From contig JAGTXO010000011.1 of assembly GCA_019448385.1 (NCBI GenBank), forward strand, positions 772,001 to 836,000: a stretch of DNA of 64,000 nt, given 5' to 3'. The stretch comes from Diacronema lutheri (lineage: Eukaryota > Haptophyta > Pavlovophyceae > Pavlovales > Pavlovaceae). Shown piece by piece: positions 2,420 through 13,690 of this stretch. The notes below the pieces were generated by a model that was not told the origin of the DNA, did not search any database, and saw only the letters and a list, made by a program, of their open reading frames with translations. The position numbers and the translations under genes are program-made. How positions within the stretch are numbered: position 1 is the stretch's first letter; the number at the start of each line of letters is the position of its first letter.

Positions 2420-3664
2420 TCATGGCTCGCGCTTCGCCCTGGCTGCCGCTGCACCCTCGCGCTCCGCCTCGCCGGGCTCCGCGCGATTCTTCCGGCCGGC
2501 GAGCGCGTCAGCGCCGAGGTCGATGTCGCGCGCATTGCACGAGACAGTCGGCGCCACTTGCGCGCCGCCGAAACCGCTCACTGAGGAGGCCGCACTGGCT
2601 GAAACGAAGCCGTCTTCGTCAGCTGGTCGCGCGCGCTTCTCGTCCGCGTCGGGCTCGTCCGACGCCGGTGCGCATGGGTCCCTCAGCCGCTCGGCCGCGG
2701 CGTCAGGCGCGGCATTCAGCCGAGAAGTTTTCAAGTAGGCGTACGCGAACGCCGATCCCAGCGTGAGCGCCGAACCGAACACCTGCATGCGCGACCAGTT
2801 GCTCACCTCGCCGAGCACGAGGTGCGCCACGAGGATGAGCACCACCACCTTCGCGTTGCCCACCACCGCCGCGCCCACCGACGAGAAGAGGCGCAGCGTG
2901 TGATACACAATCATGTTATACAGCACCGCCACCGCCGAGCCGCCGAGCAGGATGTACGCGCACAGCGCAGGGCGCTCGGCGGTGAGGCGCACGGCGGCGT
3001 GCGCTTCGCCCAAAACGAGGGCAAACGGCACGAGCGCAACAAAGGCAACCGGCCCCGTGTAGAAAGTCATCTGCACCGAATCGAGCCGCAGCCCCTGCAG
3101 CATCTTCGACGCGAACGACATCTGCGCGGCGAGCATCACGAGCGAGAGCACAACGAGGCCAACGCCGAGCGGCGAGCCGCCCATCGAATGCCGGTCAAAG
3201 AGCGCGATGGCCACGCCGACGCTGACGAAGACAAGCGCGACCGCCTGGCGCGCGTCCGGAGCCTTCCCCTCGATGCACATGGCAAACGGCGCAATCACGA
3301 CGGGGAGCATCGCACGGACGACCTGGTTCATCGAGAGCTCGAGGTGGACCAGGCTGGCGTTGTTGAGTGCAATCTGCAGGCCGTGCAACACGCCGACGAC
3401 GGCCACGTCGCGCACGACGCGGCGCGACGACATGACGCTCGTGTGCCGCTGCCCGTAATGGCCAGTCGTGAAGAGCGGCAGCAGCATGACGGTCGACATG
3501 AGCATGTGGCACGCCGTCATCACGATGGGGAAATGAAACCCGGACGTATGCAACGCCCACCGGTTAAACAGGTTCAGCGTCGCGTTGAAGCTGAAGTAGA
3601 GGGCCACGAAGAGCACCTTCTCCGCGCTGCCCCCGCCGCCGTCGCGCACTCGGCACGACGACAT
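2420..3664 (-). CDS. Triose-phosphate/nucleotide-sugar translocator family (EamA/TPT) transporter
   Basis: A 414-residue intronless protein with about ten hydrophobic segments spread over residues 18-320, followed by a polar, acidic, probably cytosolic tail of about 90 residues. The first helix (FVALYFSFNATLNLFNRWAL) and the late segment ALYNMIVYHTLRL-like region (AVLYNMIVYHTLRLFSSVGA) match the TPT subgroup of the drug/metabolite transporter superfamily, which exchanges phosphorylated C3-C6 compounds or nucleotide sugars across plastid or Golgi membranes. Substrate cannot be read from the sequence. No clear plastid leader precedes the first helix, so an endomembrane location is slightly favoured. 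The start at 3664 is the only ATG before the first helix. Confidence 0.85.
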   Translation of the reverse strand: MSSCRVRDGGGGSAEKVLFVALYFSFNATLNLFNRWALHTSGFHFPIVMTACHMLMSTVMLLPLFTTGHYGQRHTSVMSSRRVVRDVAVVGVLHGLQIALNNASLVHLELSMNQVVRAMLPVVIAPFAMCIEGKAPDARQAVALVFVSVGVAIALFDRHSMGGSPLGVGLVVLSLVMLAAQMSFASKMLQGLRLDSVQMTFYTGPVAFVALVPFALVLGEAHAAVRLTAERPALCAYILLGGSAVAVLYNMIVYHTLRLFSSVGAAVVGNAKVVVLILVAHLVLGEVSNWSRMQVFGSALTLGSAFAYAYLKTSRLNAAPDAAAERLRDPCAPASDEPDADEKRARPADEDGFVSASAASSVSGFGGAQVAPTVSCNARDIDLGADALAGRKNRAEPGEAEREGAAAARAKREP

Positions 3665-6527: not shown

Positions 6528-9300
6528 CTAGGTGGAGAGGCAATGCTCGCGGTAAAGCGTCTCGAGCTCCTCGCGCTTGCGCGGCAGCCGCTTGCCGTCG
6601 AAGCCGCTCTTCTTGAGGCGGGCGCTCATCACCGCGGCCTGCGCGCCGCGAGCGAATGCCGGGGAAGCGCACACCCACCGCAAAACACGCGCAAAGCGGC
6701 AGAGAGGAGGGAGCGCCACGCGAGGCAGGCCGCGCGCTGAGCCGCGGCGCGCGCGCGCCGGTCGCGCGCGCGCGAGCGCCTTCTCGCATGGCTTACCGAC
6801 GGGAGCGGGTCGTTCGCCTTGTCCTGGCCAAAGCGCGGCTGCTCGGCGGCCTCCTCCGCCTCGGCCGACAGGCCGGCGCGCGTGGGCGGCGAGTCGCACG
6901 GCTGCGACTGCTGCTCCGCGAGCCGCGGGCGTTTGCTGCCCGCGCCTGCCTGTGCAGCACTTGGCGACGGGACCGGCTGTGCCGCCGCTGCGAGCTGCGC
7001 GCGCAGCCGTGCGAGCTCCTGCGTATGGGGTGGGGTGGGGTGAGGGTGGGGTGGGATGGGGGGGGGGGGGGGGGGGGGGGGGGGGGGCGGGGAGGTGGCA
7101 GGCATGAGCAGCATGCGCTTGGGCGCGCGCGCAGCTCGCGCGTTGAGCCCGGGCGGCGCAGCTCCGCTGCAATGGCGCGAGGGCGCGCGCGCGCCTTTTC
7201 ACACGCGGCGCGCTCGCGCAGCGCGTCGGCCGCCTCCTCCTTCGTCGTCGCCGCGTCGGCGCGCGCACGCTCGAGCTCGCGCTCGAGCGCAGCGGCGGCG
7301 CGCTGCGCGTCCGCGAGCGCAGCGCCTGAGCGCGCGGCCGCCGCGCGCGCGCTCTCGCGCTCCGCGTCGACGATCTCGGCGGCGCGCGCGGCGCGCACGT
7401 CGGCGGCGCGCGCGTCGGCGCGCGCGCGCTCGAGCTGCTCGCCGATCTCGGCGGCGTCCTTCGCGCGGCGCGCCTCGGCTTCGGCCGACCGCCTCTCCGC
7501 GCCGTCCGCGCGTGCCTCCGCTTCGAATGCGCGCCGCTCCGCGCCGCCCGCGCGCGTCTCCGCGGCGACGCGCGCGGCATGCGCGTCGACCGAACGACGC
7601 TCTGCCTCTCGCGCGCCCGCCTCGGCTGCCGCGTCGGCGCGGCGCACGCGCTCGTCCGCACTGGCCACCGCGGCGTCATGCGCCGCGCGCGCGGCGGCGG
7701 CGCGCGCCTCCGCGTCCGACGCGCGCGCGCCGGCGGCCTTGGCATCCGCCGCGGCCGCGCGCGCGCTCGCTTCGTGCTCGGCGGCACGACGCGCGACTGC
7801 GCCAAGCGCGCGCCCCGCAGCGACGGGCAGGTCCTCGGCGGCGAACGCGCCGATGACCTCGATGCGCGCGGGCCCGCGCGCGGCGTCGAGCAGCTCGGAC
7901 GCCGCCTGGCGCGCGGCGTCCGCCCACGCGTCCGCCTCGGCGGCGCCCGCGCCGGGCGCGGCCGCGCTCGCGCACGCGCTCGCGAGGCGCTCGCGCGCGG
8001 CGGAGCGCGCGGCCGCGCAGAGCGCGGCCGAGCGCGCGTCGAGCAGCGCGACGTGCTGCTCGAGCGCCGCCGCCGCGGCGCGCTCGAGCCGCGCCTCGCC
8101 ATCCTTGACGATGGCCGAAGGCCCGCTCGCGGCGCGCGCGTAGAGCACGCGCGCGCCACGCAGCGCGGCGTCGTGCGCGGCGTCGAGCTGCGCGCGCTCG
8201 AGGCGCGCGCCCGCGCGCTCGACGGCAACGCAGAGCTCGCGCGCGTGCGCGTCGACCGCCGCCGCCGCCGCGCGCTCGCACTCCGCCGCCGCGACGCTCG
8301 CCCACGCCGCGTGGATGTGCGGCACGGCACCATCGTTGATTGAGCGGACGTAGGCGCGCAGGAGCTGCGCGTATGCGCCACCGCTCAGCGCGCAGCCCGC
8401 GACGGCCTTCGGGCGGATGGTCTCGAGGACGTGAGCGCGCAGCGCGCCGAGCGCGTCGCGGAACGCGTGCGAGAGCCGCGACAGGTCCGCCAGCGCCGAC
8501 AGCTCGCCCTCCTTGACGTCGCTGCCGACGGTCGGGTGCGGCAGCGCGAAAAGTCGTCGGCGCGGGAAGAGCCGCGTGATCGCGCCGCGCGTCTCGTTGC
8601 GCTCGATGGCCGCGGCGCTGCCACCCGGCGCCGGCCGGAGCGACTCGTCGAGGTATTCGCGCGCGCTCATCGCGCGCCCCTGATCGTCGACCATCTCGAG
8701 GAAAGCGTCGCGCAGCAGCCAGACAAAATCGGGCAGCTCGGCGGCGAGCGCGGCCTCCTCGGCCGCCTTGCCGTCCGCGCCGCCGGCGCCGGCGCCGGCG
8801 CCGGCACCGCCGGCGCGAACGCGCTCGGTCAGGTTGGCAACGAGCGAGAGCGAATCGATCGCCGCGTTGTTCACCACCTTGTCCCCGTTGTACACGAAGA
8901 GCGACGAGAGGAGGATCGCAAGCGAGAAGATCTTGGCGTCGTGCGTCCCGTCCTGGCACACCGACGAGAGGCCCTCCGTGTCGAGGAAGAGAACGGAGAG
9001 CGGCGGCTCGCCCGGTGTACGCACCACCTCGAGCGGCTCGCCCCACATCCAGATTCCCTTGGTGCACGCCTGCACGGTCGAGCCGACCGCAAAGCCGCGC
9101 GGCGCGCCCGTCAGCTGGTTGAGCAGGAACGACTTGCCCGACCGGTAGACGCCGGCGACGGTGCATACGGCAAGCTGGCCCTGGAGCGCGCACAGGCGCG
9201 CGACCGCCTCTTCGCACACCGTGAGCGTACCGTCCGGTTCCGCGCGGATCAGCTGCATCGGCGCGGCACGCGATGCTGCGGCCTTCGCGTGCTTGGCCAT
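6528..9300 (-). CDS. Guanylate-binding-protein (GBP/dynamin superfamily) GTPase with coiled-coil tail
   Basis: Three exons, complement of 7195-9300, 6797-7018 and 6528-6638, give about 812 residues. The GTPase domain has the P-loop GVYRSGKSF (residues 50-58), switch-II DTEGL (107-111), and the GBP-type guanine cap region; WLLRDAFL around residue 200 corresponds to the GBP 'RD' motif. After the GTPase comes a helical middle part, then a very long alanine/arginine/glutamate-rich coiled coil, and a C-terminal tail with a basic patch (GSKRPRLAEQ). GBP-like proteins hydrolyse GTP and remodel or tether membranes; plant and protist relatives work in trafficking and defence. Intron 1 (7019-7194) has a GC donor (AAG|GCGCGC) and carries a 30-base poly-C (coding strand) before its acceptor; intron 2 (6639-6796) has GTAAGC. 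A TTG three codons upstream is in frame, but the ATG at 9300 is the sensible start. Confidence 0.85.
7058..7087. repeat. 30-base poly-G run (poly-C in the transcript) inside a GBP intron
   Basis: The uninterrupted G run is followed by C-rich sequence on the transcribed strand reaching to the CAG acceptor at 7019-7021. It probably serves as the polypyrimidine tract of this intron. Its length may be unreliable because homopolymers sequence poorly. Confidence 0.85.
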
Positions 9301-9388
9301 CGCGTTCAAAAAGGCGACTGGCGCGCAAGTGCGACTTCATCAGTCATAGACTCATACCCCACCCCACCCCAACCCGACTGGCGGGAGG
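9301..9388. promoter_or_regulatory. 88-bp divergent intergenic region
   Basis: This is the whole space between the start codons of the GBP gene (minus, 9300) and the PARP-finger gene (plus, 9389). It must contain both leaders and core promoters. It includes a C-rich track (accccaccccacccc) near the plus-strand ATG. No TATA box is evident. Confidence 0.5.
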
Positions 9389-11043
9389 ATGAGCCGGAGC
9401 GTCGAGTACGCCAAGTCGGGGCGCTCGAGCTGCAAGAAGTGCAAGGTGAAGATCGCAAAGGATGAGCTGCGCGTCGGCGTGGTCACCGTGAACGAGGACG
9501 TCGAGATGACCTCATGGTTCCACCCGCAGTGCGCCCAAAAGAAGCGCGGCGTGGAGATGACCGTGCGCGCGCGCGCGCCACGCGCGCGGAGTGCGCGCGC
9601 CACGCGTGCGCGCTGGCACGCGCGGTGGGCCGGCTCGGCGCGCAAGCAGCGCAAGCGGCGATCGTTGCCGCGCTCAGCTCGCCGCTGCGCGCGCCAACGC
9701 CCGTCCGCCGCACGTCGCGCAGCCGTCAGAATTTGCCGGGTACGACGAGCTCCGGCCGGAGGACCGCGCGACGATCGACCAGCTCTGCTCGGGCGAGCTC
9801 GCCGCGTCAAACTCGGCAAAGAAGCCGCGCGTTTCGTCCGACGCGCCGCCCACCGACGACCCCAACTCGGAGCACCCCGGCTACGCCGCCGCGTACGCAA
9901 AATATGTGGCGCTTCCCATCCCGGTGCTCAAGGCGTACCTCGGCGCGAACGACCAACTAAAGGGCGGTGCGTGCAGCGGCGCGGCGCGCGCCACACGACA
10001 AGGGCCGCGTCTTCGGCGAGTACGTGCGCGCGCGGAGGTGGCGCGCCCACGCGCGCCCACCGCGCCGCACCTCCCCCCCCCCCATGCCCCCATGCCCCCA
10101 CGACCCGCACAGGCGCAAAGGCAGCGCTCGTTTCTCAGTGCGTTGACGGCGAGCTGCACGGTGCGCTGCCGCGCTGTCCGCTGTGCGAGTTTGGCCGGCT
10201 AAAGACGGCGGAGGGCACCAAGCACATGCTCGTCTGCCCTGGCCACTTTTCGGAGAGCGCGCGAGTATGGCGGACATGCGGGTACAAGGCCGAGGCCGCA
10301 AAGGCCAGCCGCCTGCCGTGGCGCACAGCAGAAGAGGGCCCGCGCGCGGTGGAGGCGGAGCCCGCCGCGGCGGGCGGCGCGCAGCTGGACGCTGCCCAAT
10401 TCGACGGCTTGAGCCCGCAGGCCGCCGCCGACCGGCTCGTGAGCGTCGCGCGGGAAGCGGGTGCGACCCTTTCGGCTGACGAGACGACGGCGCGCATCGC
10501 GGCCGGCACCGCGCTCAACGCGAGTCGCGACGAGGAGGGAAAGCCCGAACCGGCCAAAGCGCTGCGCGAGCTGCTCGCCAAGTACGGCCGTCGCGCGCGC
10601 GCGTGCGCGCGGCGGCAACCTCCGCTTCGCTGCGCGCGAGCGCGTGCCGCTCAGTCCACAGCCGCGCGCCGTGCGCGCCCGCCCCGCCCCGCCCCGCCCC
10701 CGGTGTGCGCGCGCGCGCGCGCCCGCGCAGGTACCCGCCCAAGCGCACGGCAAAGATGGAGGCGAGCCACCCGGCGAACAGCACGATCGTCGCGCTGCTC
10801 AAGGAGTACGCGGACTTGATGGAGAAGTTGGGCGAGAACGTGCACGGGGTCAACGGCACGCGCAAGGCCAACGTGGCCATCATGGCGCTCGAGTACGAGA
10901 TCACCTCGGGCAAGGCGCTCGCCGCGGCCAAGACCAAGGTCGAGGGCGTCGGAGCGTCGACCGCCTCGAAAATCGACGAGATACTCACGACGGGCACCTT
11001 TGCGAAGCTCGAGGAGATGCGAGCGCGGGCAGCGGCGCTCTGA
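9389..11043 (+). CDS. PARP-type zinc finger / PADR1 / Pol-beta-like HhH protein
   Basis: Four exons, 9389-9562, 9723-9966, 10113-10602 and 10731-11043, join cleanly in frame into 406 residues (donors GTGCGC, GTGCGT, GTGCGC). Order of parts: a PARP-type zinc finger (YAKSGRSSCKKC, then WFHPQC), as in PARP1, DNA ligase III and plant ZDP, which binds DNA nicks; a PADR1-like zinc domain with CVDGELHGALPRCPLC and a second cysteine pair further on; and a C-terminal helix-hairpin-helix domain resembling the 8-kDa N-terminal domain of DNA polymerase beta (VEGVGASTASKIDEIL). Lys383 in ASKIDE lines up with the Schiff-base lysine of the Pol beta lyase. There is no PARP catalytic domain and no room for one before the stop. 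Likely a nuclear DNA strand-break protein; lyase activity is inference. The last exon could be a separate gene from ATG 10756, but the phase-matched splice argues for one. Confidence 0.75.
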
Positions 11044-11687: not shown

Positions 11688-12108
11688 CGCCAACCGGTGC
11701 CGATCGCGTCGAGCAGGATCGGCTCGCACAAATACGCTCGCCTCGTGGCAGTCGGCGACTCGCGCCTGACGGCTGCGAGTGGCAGTGACCGTGACTGTGG
11801 CGTCAGTCTGTCGCCTCTCGAGTGTGAGCGACGCCTACATTCTGCCCAAGCTCGTCGGCCAGACGGCCACCAGCGCAGCCCAAGCGTGTGACGACGACTC
11901 GCATGCGCGGGACCGACGGCCACGGGCCAACGCCTGAGGGTGTGAAGCGCGACGACGGAAACTGGTGTGGGATCAGAAGGCTGTGCCCGCGTGCGGGATC
12001 ATCCCGCGTGCGGGATCAGTGGACTGGACATCCCGCGACCCGCGTGCGGATCAGTGGGATGTCCAGTCCAACGGCCTGAAGAGTCGAAACTCGAAAGCGT
12101 AACATCCA
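11688..12108. other. Intergenic region upstream of the CDPK gene
   Basis: The first part is the 3' flank of the small acidic gene. From about 11985 it becomes repetitive: the word cgcgtgcgggatca occurs twice, with a third, slightly altered copy near 12041-12055, interleaved with the inverted repeat at 12020-12070 listed separately. No convincing coding frame was found. Confidence 0.5.
12020..12070. repeat. Perfect 15-bp inverted repeat upstream of the CDPK start
   Basis: The arm tggactggacatccc (12020-12034) is followed after 21 bases by its exact reverse complement gggatgtccagtcca (12056-12070), 39 bp before the CDPK ATG. It could form a hairpin in the leader RNA or be a paired binding site in the promoter. 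The spacer contains part of the cgcgtgcgg repeat. Confidence 0.8.
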
Positions 12109-13690
12109 ATGCCGTGGGTGCCTTGCGGGAGCTCCGCCTCGGTACAGGATCGGGACGAGCGGCCGCGCGGCACGCCGCGCTTCCACCCAAAGCTGCTGCG
12201 CGCCTACGACATTCCGGCCAAGCCGGTTGGCGAGGGCGGGTTTGGCGTCGTCTATGTCGGCAAGCACCTCAAGACGGGCCAGAAGCACGCGATCAAGGTG
12301 ATCGGCGCGTCCGCCGAGTCGGCGGACGTGGTGGCGCACGAGGTGGCGATCATGCAGGCGCTCGCAAAGAAGCGCTCGCCACACATCGTCCGCATCCTCG
12401 GCTATGAAAAGGACACGTGGCAGCATTACCTCGTGCTCCAGGCGTGCGAGGGCGGCGAGCTCTTCGACCGGATAGCCGACCATGTCTTCACCGAGGAGGA
12501 GGCGGCGTCGGCGGTCGAGCACATCCTGCGCGGGCTCAAGGCGTGCCACGAGGCGGGCATCTGCCATCGTGACATGAAGCCCGAGAACGTGCTCTACTCG
12601 ACGCGCGCGATCGACTCTCCGCTGCTGCTGACCGACTTTGGTCTCTCGTGCCGCTTCAAGCCCGGCAAGAAGAGCATCACGGACTGGTGCGGCACGACGC
12701 CGTACATGGCGCCGGAGGTGTTCATCTGCTCCAAGGAGAGGACCGCCTACTCGAGCGAATGCGATCTCTGGTCCACTGGCGTGCTTGTGTACATTCTGTT
12801 GACGGGGTACATGCCCTTCGACGGTCCCGAGCGTACAATTGAGGCCAACGTGCGCGCGGGCAAGTACTCGATGAGCGCGTCGGTGATGGGCAGCATCTCG
12901 GAGCGAGCCAAGCAGTTTCTCACGGGCCTGCTCACCGTCGACCCCGACAAGCGCCTCACCGCCGCGTCAGCGCTCACGCACGCGTGGATTGCCGGCCGAA
13001 ACCAGCGCGTCGCGAAGCCCGTCAACGAGGAGGTGGTCGCGCGGCTCAAACAGTTCGCAAAGCGCAGCCGGTTGGAGAAGAAGCTACGCTTTGTCATCGC
13101 GCAGCACCTCACGCTCAGCGAGATTGGCCAGCTCAAGGCCGACTTCGCCGCGCTCGACTCCGACCACACGGGCAAACTCTCGCACCAGGCATGCGCCACG
13201 CCGCGGATCCGCAACGCGCGACGCGGCCGGTGCGGCGCGGCGGCGCGCGCTCAGCGCCGCACGCCGCGCCGCGCGCTCCGGCCGGCCGCAGGAGGTGCAA
13301 CAGTTTTTGGCGGCATCAAAGGAGCAACCAAAGTACTCTGATATTGCCGAAATCATCTCGAGCCTCGATGCGGATGCGGACGGGCAGATCGACATCACGG
13401 AGTTCACCGCGGCGGCGCTCGACGTGCGGCTGCTGCTCGACGACGAGAAGCTGCGCGCCGTCTTTCAACACATGGACATGAACCACGATGGCAGCCTCGC
13501 GATGGCCGAGCTCATGGCGCAGCTTGACGGCGACCCGATTGTGTACGACTTGATGGCCGAGGGCGACGGGAACAAAGACGGCAAGCTGTCGCTTGACGAG
13601 TTCAGGGCGCTCATGAAAAATCGCATGCGGCAGGCGAAGAGCGTCGTCGGCGCGACGCCGGGCTCGACTGCGGCGGGCGCGAGCAGCTAG
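12109..13690 (+). CDS. Calcium-dependent protein kinase (CDPK)
   Basis: Two exons, 12109-13188 and 13292-13690, give 492 residues. The kinase domain has the glycine loop GEGGFGVVY, HAIKV lysine, catalytic loop CHRDMKPENV, DFG in LTDFGLSC, and APEVF with GTTPYM activation segment: a complete serine/threonine kinase. After a junction helix come four EF-hand candidates: LDSDHTGKLSHQEV, LDADADGQIDITEF, MDMNHDGSLAMAEL and GDGNKDGKLSLDEF, all with acidic ligands at positions 1, 3, 5 and a terminal acidic residue. The 103-bp intron has a GC donor (CAG|GCATGC) and splits the first EF-hand. CDPKs are activated directly by calcium and occur in plants, algae and apicomplexans. No N-terminal Gly-2 for myristoylation is present (MPWVPCG), though Cys6 could be palmitoylated. 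Confidence 0.95.

Follow-up and report, generated by a model that had tools for sequence, protein, structure and literature searches.

Within a 64,000-nucleotide stretch of the genome of the haptophyte Diacronema lutheri (contig JAGTXO010000011.1, forward-strand positions 772,001 to 836,000; C37:772001-836000 where contigs are labelled by C-number), hereafter the window, we observe a four-exon gene whose product of 399-406 residues combines a PARP-type zinc finger (zf-PARP) with a helix-hairpin-helix domain of the Pol beta 8-kDa type (HHH_8). The gene itself is real, and the domain assignments support the fusion of zf-PARP and HHH_8 in a single chain, referred to here as the finger protein. 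We put at about even the chance that this is a strand-break- or gap-binding adaptor of DNA repair, probably nuclear; binding to DNA and to nicks, a nuclear location and a role in repair are what we infer for it. The component domains are known, and their combination is one that we could not find described.

In such an adaptor the PARP1-type finger would attach to a nick, a gap or a broken end, a PADR1-like zinc ribbon may add a structural or DNA-proximal module, and the HHH_8 domain would grip the DNA 5' of the gap. Without an ADP-ribosyl transferase half, the protein would mark, hold or present intermediates of single-strand-break or base-excision repair and would modify no protein. If nick binding is true, D. 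lutheri would possess a PARP1-like break sensor in which a gap-gripping repair domain stands in place of the signalling enzyme, and break detection would be coupled to base-excision repair without poly(ADP-ribose).

Domain composition of the finger protein

The gene and its domains are laid out as follows, in coordinates of the window; on contig C37 the gene covers 781389-783043.

9389..9562, + strand: exon 1, with the start ATG and the larger part of the zf-PARP finger (Cys15, Cys18, His45, Cys48)
9563..9722, + strand: intron 1, 160 nt, GTGCGC...GCGCAG, with many inverted GC repeats
9723..9966, + strand: exon 2, with the end of zf-PARP, a linker with a basic KKPR stretch, and the N-terminal helical part of the PADR1-like domain
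9967..10112, + strand: intron 2, 146 nt, GTGCGT...CACAG, with a C-rich tract 5' of the acceptor
10113..10602, + strand: exon 3, with the PADR1-like zinc ribbon and a linker; it ends at 10581 if donor 10582 is used
10603..10730, + strand: intron 3, 128 nt (149 nt with donor 10582), with a C-rich tract, a CAG acceptor and non-coding statistics
10731..11043, + strand: exon 4, with the HHH_8 (Pol beta 8-kDa type) domain and the stop
9404..9782, + strand: zf-PARP, residues 6-78, split by intron 1 (Pfam PF00645, E=1e-19, 71.5 bits, cut-off 39.3)
10163..10291, + strand: PADR1-like zinc ribbon, residues 157-199 (Cys161, 164, 181 and 195), below the Pfam cut-off
10385..10588, + strand: predicted three-helix unit, residues ~231-298 (predicted local distance difference test, pLDDT, ~81-92), with no match in the family search
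10774..10998, + strand: HHH_8, residues 318-392 (Pfam PF14716, E=1.2e-13, 51.6 bits, cut-off 30)
10969..10971, + strand: codon of Lys383, aligned to Pol beta Lys72

The two outer domains carry the assignment. Both score above their Pfam cut-offs in the order claimed by the original prediction, which had been made from the letters of this DNA, and the HHH_8 match spans profile positions 2-72 of 73. A sequence search of the PDB leads from the N-terminal part to PARP1, whose fingers are its nearest solved relatives, and from the last exon to Pol beta (best E=4.4e-8), to which the HHH_8 domain is 40% identical over 82 columns. At E<=1 the sole Pfam matches in the protein are zf-PARP, HHH_8 and a weak PADR1, with none to WGR, PARP_reg, the PARP catalytic domain or BRCT, none to the fingers, palm and thumb of Pol X (PF10391, PF14792, PF14791), and none to a DNA 3'-phosphatase domain. 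The earlier statement that the HHH domain takes the place of the WGR and catalytic half of PARP thus agrees with what we find. The same prediction called the finger nick-binding: the finger stands (E=1e-19), and the adjective is a matter of family membership.

The middle domain, which had been described as PADR1-like, is less secure. Zn_ribbon_PADR1 (PF08063) matches the full protein at E=0.038 and 14.2 bits, and the fragment alone at E=0.0021 and 18.2 bits, both below the cut-off of 25.1. Four cysteines and a DG..GAL motif do align with PADR1, and a pairwise comparison with the ribbon of the organism's own PARP1 gives E=2e-5, as a single comparison. In a six-frame search of the genome (43,492,796 bases in 103 contigs; such a search can miss genes broken by introns) there are two PADR1 matches, both below the cut-off, of which that of the finger protein is the best. 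The available part of the report on the published assembly of D. lutheri NIVA-4/92 gives 43,502,671 bases in 103 contigs, the longest of 3.042 Mb, with 73.25% GC and 80.8% BUSCO completeness (PMC8379373). The four cysteines and the rank within the genome favour the PADR1-like label, and the Pfam score does not.

Several observations weigh against an adaptor that binds breaks and gaps. Every DNA-binding claim for the finger protein follows from family membership, the PADR1 match lies below the Pfam cut-off, and the PADR1-like fragment on its own retrieves no PARP1 chain in the PDB search at E<=10. The structure prediction that had been proposed as a check on the C-terminal domain was run from an alignment of two sequences and is middling in confidence (best pLDDT 76.8, five models 49-77); Foldseek matches of this model are non-significant (best E 1.8), and its comparison ranks two unrelated chains level with Pol X. 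Lastly, the lysine that would form a Schiff base is kept, although pure binding does not need it.

Gene model

Joined together, the four predicted exons form one open frame of 406 residues, as had been proposed, and all three introns are bounded by GT and AG. The third donor is ambiguous: position 10603 yields 406 residues, and 10582 (AA|GTACGG), which looks equally good, yields 399. With codon frequencies trained on 2311 codons from other genes of the same genome (two of these genes lie in the window), the model frame scores +0.68 bits per codon in exon 1, +0.46 in exon 2, +0.25 in exon 3 (to 10581) and +0.67 in exon 4, and the other two frames of every exon score negative; for the 21 bases that separate the two donors the codon statistics are uninformative. 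Intron scores span -0.46 to +0.31, and because the top value, from one frame of intron 1, exceeds that of exon 3, the coding signal of exon 3 taken alone is modest.

One may ask whether this is instead two genes, with exons 1-3 encoding a finger/PADR1 protein and a separate HHH_8 protein of 95 residues starting from the ATG at 10756. That ATG is in frame within the last exon, in a context that appears favourable by eye, and in this genome 45% of coding sequences have a single exon according to the available part of PMC8379373. Against this division, the frame of exon 3 meets no stop before 10820, so that both genes would overlap; intron 3 is non-coding by its statistics (-0.35 to +0.06), and its C-rich tract and CAG acceptor resemble those of intron 2; and the junction of exons 3 and 4 can be joined in frame. 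We consider two genes quite improbable.

A further alternative is that the gene is a PARP1 paralogue, decaying or cut short, which had its C-terminal half exchanged by accident and has no conserved role. The weakness of the PADR1 match would suit such a relic, as would the loss of the residues equivalent to Lys35 and Tyr39 of Pol beta and the fact that neither a second HHH copy nor a viral relative was seen in the searches of the genome and of viral contigs. Decay is at odds with the gene itself, in which all exons are open and score positive in their own frame and the Cys/His positions of the zinc ligands are intact; it is also at odds with the affinity of the finger, which is closer to the two PARP1 fingers of PDB 2n8a (37 and 35% identity) than to those of PARP1 from D. 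lutheri itself (31 and 28%). Of the explanations weighed here we regard this one as the least probable.

Residues of the possible lyase site

The original prediction drew attention to Lys383 as the match to the Schiff-base lysine of the Pol beta lyase domain, and this holds: Lys383, the lysine of TASKIDE, aligns with Pol beta Lys72 and lies in an intact GVGxxxAxKIDE motif. Beside it the equivalents of His34, Arg40, Lys41 and Lys84 are kept. Others are changed: Gly stands for Lys35, Thr for both Tyr39 and Lys60 (the latter with a Lys on each flank), Ser for Lys68 and Glu71, and Ala for Arg83.

The literature assigns roles to several of these residues, here as given in the accessible portions of each paper. 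Lys35, Lys60 and Lys72 are named with a role in lyase catalysis (PMC5537341), and the homologue of Lys72 is present in PolXs with lyase activity and absent from Pol mu and TdT (PMC5537341). Eight residues are listed as important for DNA binding (Lys41, Lys60, His34, Arg40, Tyr39, Lys68, Lys72 and Arg83; PMC8877055), half of which (4/8) the finger protein keeps, and none of the three to which single-stranded DNA binding is ascribed (Lys35, Lys60, Lys68; PMC2375893) is retained (0/3).

As a control we took the 30 best-scoring HHH_8 loci from a search around one bacterial genome, in which 88 of 119 genomes had a match; the set covers the stronger-scoring HHH_8 domains, whose members may or may not be lyases. 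A lysine occupies position 72 in 25/30 of these bacterial PolX domains, so a lysine at this position is usual for the fold and the match of Lys383 is not specific to lyase. The proposition that a Lys72 match implies a lyase was rejected on this count. Lys60 (3/30), Lys68 (2/30) and Arg83 (5/30) vary in bacteria too, and their loss in the finger protein therefore says little. Lys35 (29/30, with Arg in the remaining one) and Tyr39 (30/30) are nearly constant by comparison; to lose both is unusual, and the case against a lyase rests on those two.

It was suggested earlier that the protein trims 5'-deoxyribose phosphates. That claim is weaker than it was put, since the Lys72 match in its favour is generic and the changes of Lys35 to Gly and Tyr39 to Thr speak against it. 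In its fullest form, the protein would be an active, nick-guided lyase for 5'-deoxyribose phosphate (5'-dRP) or apurinic/apyrimidinic sites, its finger locating the incised strand and Lys383 forming the Schiff base and eliminating the sugar phosphate in trans, on behalf of a Pol X deprived of its own lyase. The alignment of Lys383 within its intact motif and the four other kept residues would be consistent with this, as would the association of the homologous lysine with lyase-bearing PolXs and its absence from Pol mu and TdT (PMC5537341, in the portion available); moreover the one Pol X palm that scores above the cut-off in this genome belongs to a Pol lambda-like enzyme with a degraded HHH_8 and no lysine aligned to the site. 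Opposed to it are the Gly and Thr at two positions that bacteria hardly vary, the generic nature of a lysine at position 72, and the fact that, of the three catalytic residues named in the same portion of PMC5537341, Lys72 alone is kept. The alignment of the Pol X at this point is also uncertain, with an insertion of ~24 residues by eye and Lys nearby, and its own loss of lyase is consequently unproven. We deem an active lyase of this kind doubtful, and lyase catalysis by the finger protein in general improbable on balance. These residues are more in keeping with a domain that contacts DNA and may retain a residual nucleophile than with an efficient lyase, and even DNA binding by the HHH_8 domain is not certain. 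Were Lys383 active, nature would have divided Pol beta between two proteins, a polymerase and a lyase guided by a sensor.

Other HHH_8, Pol X and PARP genes of the genome

The six-frame search places the finger gene first among HHH_8 matches (53.5 bits), followed by a protein on contig C93 (32.2), both above the cut-off, with the Pol X on contig C5 (20.8) and one frame on C89 (17.1) below it. The C5 gene, which is Pol lambda-like, is the sole gene with a Pol X palm above the cut-off in that search, and its HHH_8 match reaches from profile position 2 to 53 of 73. A PolX HHH profile built from 27 bacterial domains plus Pol beta, after a motif filter requiring Lys35/Tyr39 had left out L035, L037 and L047, gives 55.8 bits for the finger gene, 13.4 for the C93 protein and 4.1 for Pol X. 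In the Pol X an Arg falls in the Lys72 column, which is itself uncertain (the insertion of ~24 residues is by eye, and Lys residues are nearby). When its gene (L022, C5:245000-252000) is read at ~3180-3540, the 8-kDa domain looks decayed, and the GxG hairpin and Schiff-base lysine are unrecognisable.

Given that the 8-kDa domain of the Pol X is decayed and scores low, it is a PARP-finger protein, and not a polymerase, that holds the best lyase-type domain detected. This invites the bolder conjecture that the lyase function of Pol beta has moved off the polymerase: with the 8-kDa domain of the Pol lambda-like enzyme decayed and devoid of the Schiff-base lysine, the PARP-finger/PADR1 sensor, whose lyase-type HHH_8 is the only one detected intact, would remove 5'-dRP in trans wherever it senses a site itself; we hold this to be unlikely, and more so than lyase activity as such. 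Either way, with the 8-kDa domain decayed in the one Pol X found, one may ask by what means D. lutheri clears 5'-dRP.

A separate PARP1-like gene, joined by inference from neighbouring frames, has two fingers, of 41.9 and 27.5 bits against a cut-off of 39.3, together with PARP_reg and a catalytic domain; its PADR1-like ribbon (11.5 bits) is below the cut-off and not listed in the six-frame PADR1 search. For XRCC1_N the six-frame search of the genome yields nothing above the cut-off, and the HHH part of the finger gene was seen only once in the genome.

On C93 (L021, C93:71000-78000, minus strand) one frame encodes DnaJ, HHH_8 and a WGR-like domain, a second instance of HHH_8 beside a PARP-associated module. 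Its WGR scores 20.9 bits (cut-off 22) and its HHH_8 28.5 as protein (cut-off 30) vs 32.2 in six frames. A MUS81/ERCC4-like nuclease follows further on by eye, with no Pfam ERCC4 match in the 812-residue piece. The C93 protein is thus like the finger protein in its pairing of modules within one frame, and unlike it in its partner domains (DnaJ, WGR-like) and in the Arg at the Lys72 column.

Relation to known systems

With the N-terminal half of PARP1 (ARTD1) the finger protein shares a zf-PARP nearest to the PARP1 fingers, followed by a four-Cys PADR1-like ribbon; it differs in having a single finger and no match to BRCT, WGR, PARP_reg or the PARP catalytic domain. With the 8-kDa lyase domain of Pol beta it shares the HHH_8 match, 40% identity and Lys72, whereas fingers, palm and thumb are missing and the equivalents of Lys35, Tyr39, Lys60, Lys68 and Arg83 are changed. 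The plant protein ZDP, which bears PARP-like fingers on a DNA 3'-phosphatase, offers another likeness in that a PARP-type finger may serve as nick sensor on an end-handling protein (PMC10573277, in the part at hand). Unlike ZDP, the finger protein has no phosphatase match and one finger in place of three, and any action it has would fall on the 5' side.

Searches of viral contigs with the full protein, with the finger protein plus the Pol beta HHH, with the bacterial PolX HHH, or with the finger protein plus a PARP1 finger gave zero confirmed relatives; each relied on between two and six short peptide patterns, which makes these negatives weak. A tblastn search of phages gave no match at E<=0.01, and genome contigs searched with the finger protein and Pol beta gave 158 stretches with one confirmed relative, a bacterial PolX (L029). 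The architecture of zf-PARP, PADR1 and HHH_8 had been called undescribed, and we likewise found no description of it in the open-licence literature, the longer result lists being covered in part; in the accessible portion of a survey of PARPs across life (PMC4245714) the words HHH, haptophyte and Emiliania are absent.

Neighbouring and related genes

Two further proteins of the genome carry finger-like domains. An SNF2 helicase (L023, C9:1377000-1384500), of RAD16 type by eye, has an N-terminal zf-PARP of 31.7 bits, below the cut-off of 39.3, and a single open reading frame on C14 (L024, C14:265000-272000, minus strand) encodes domains resembling DnaJ, zf-PARP and BRCT, none of which reaches its cut-off. 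In the window itself, a guanylate-binding-protein (GBP) gene lies at 6793-9336 on the minus strand, head-to-head with the finger gene and with start codons ~90 bases apart, and a calcium-dependent protein-kinase-like gene, with kinase motifs and EF-hand-like repeats by eye, occupies 12103-13690.
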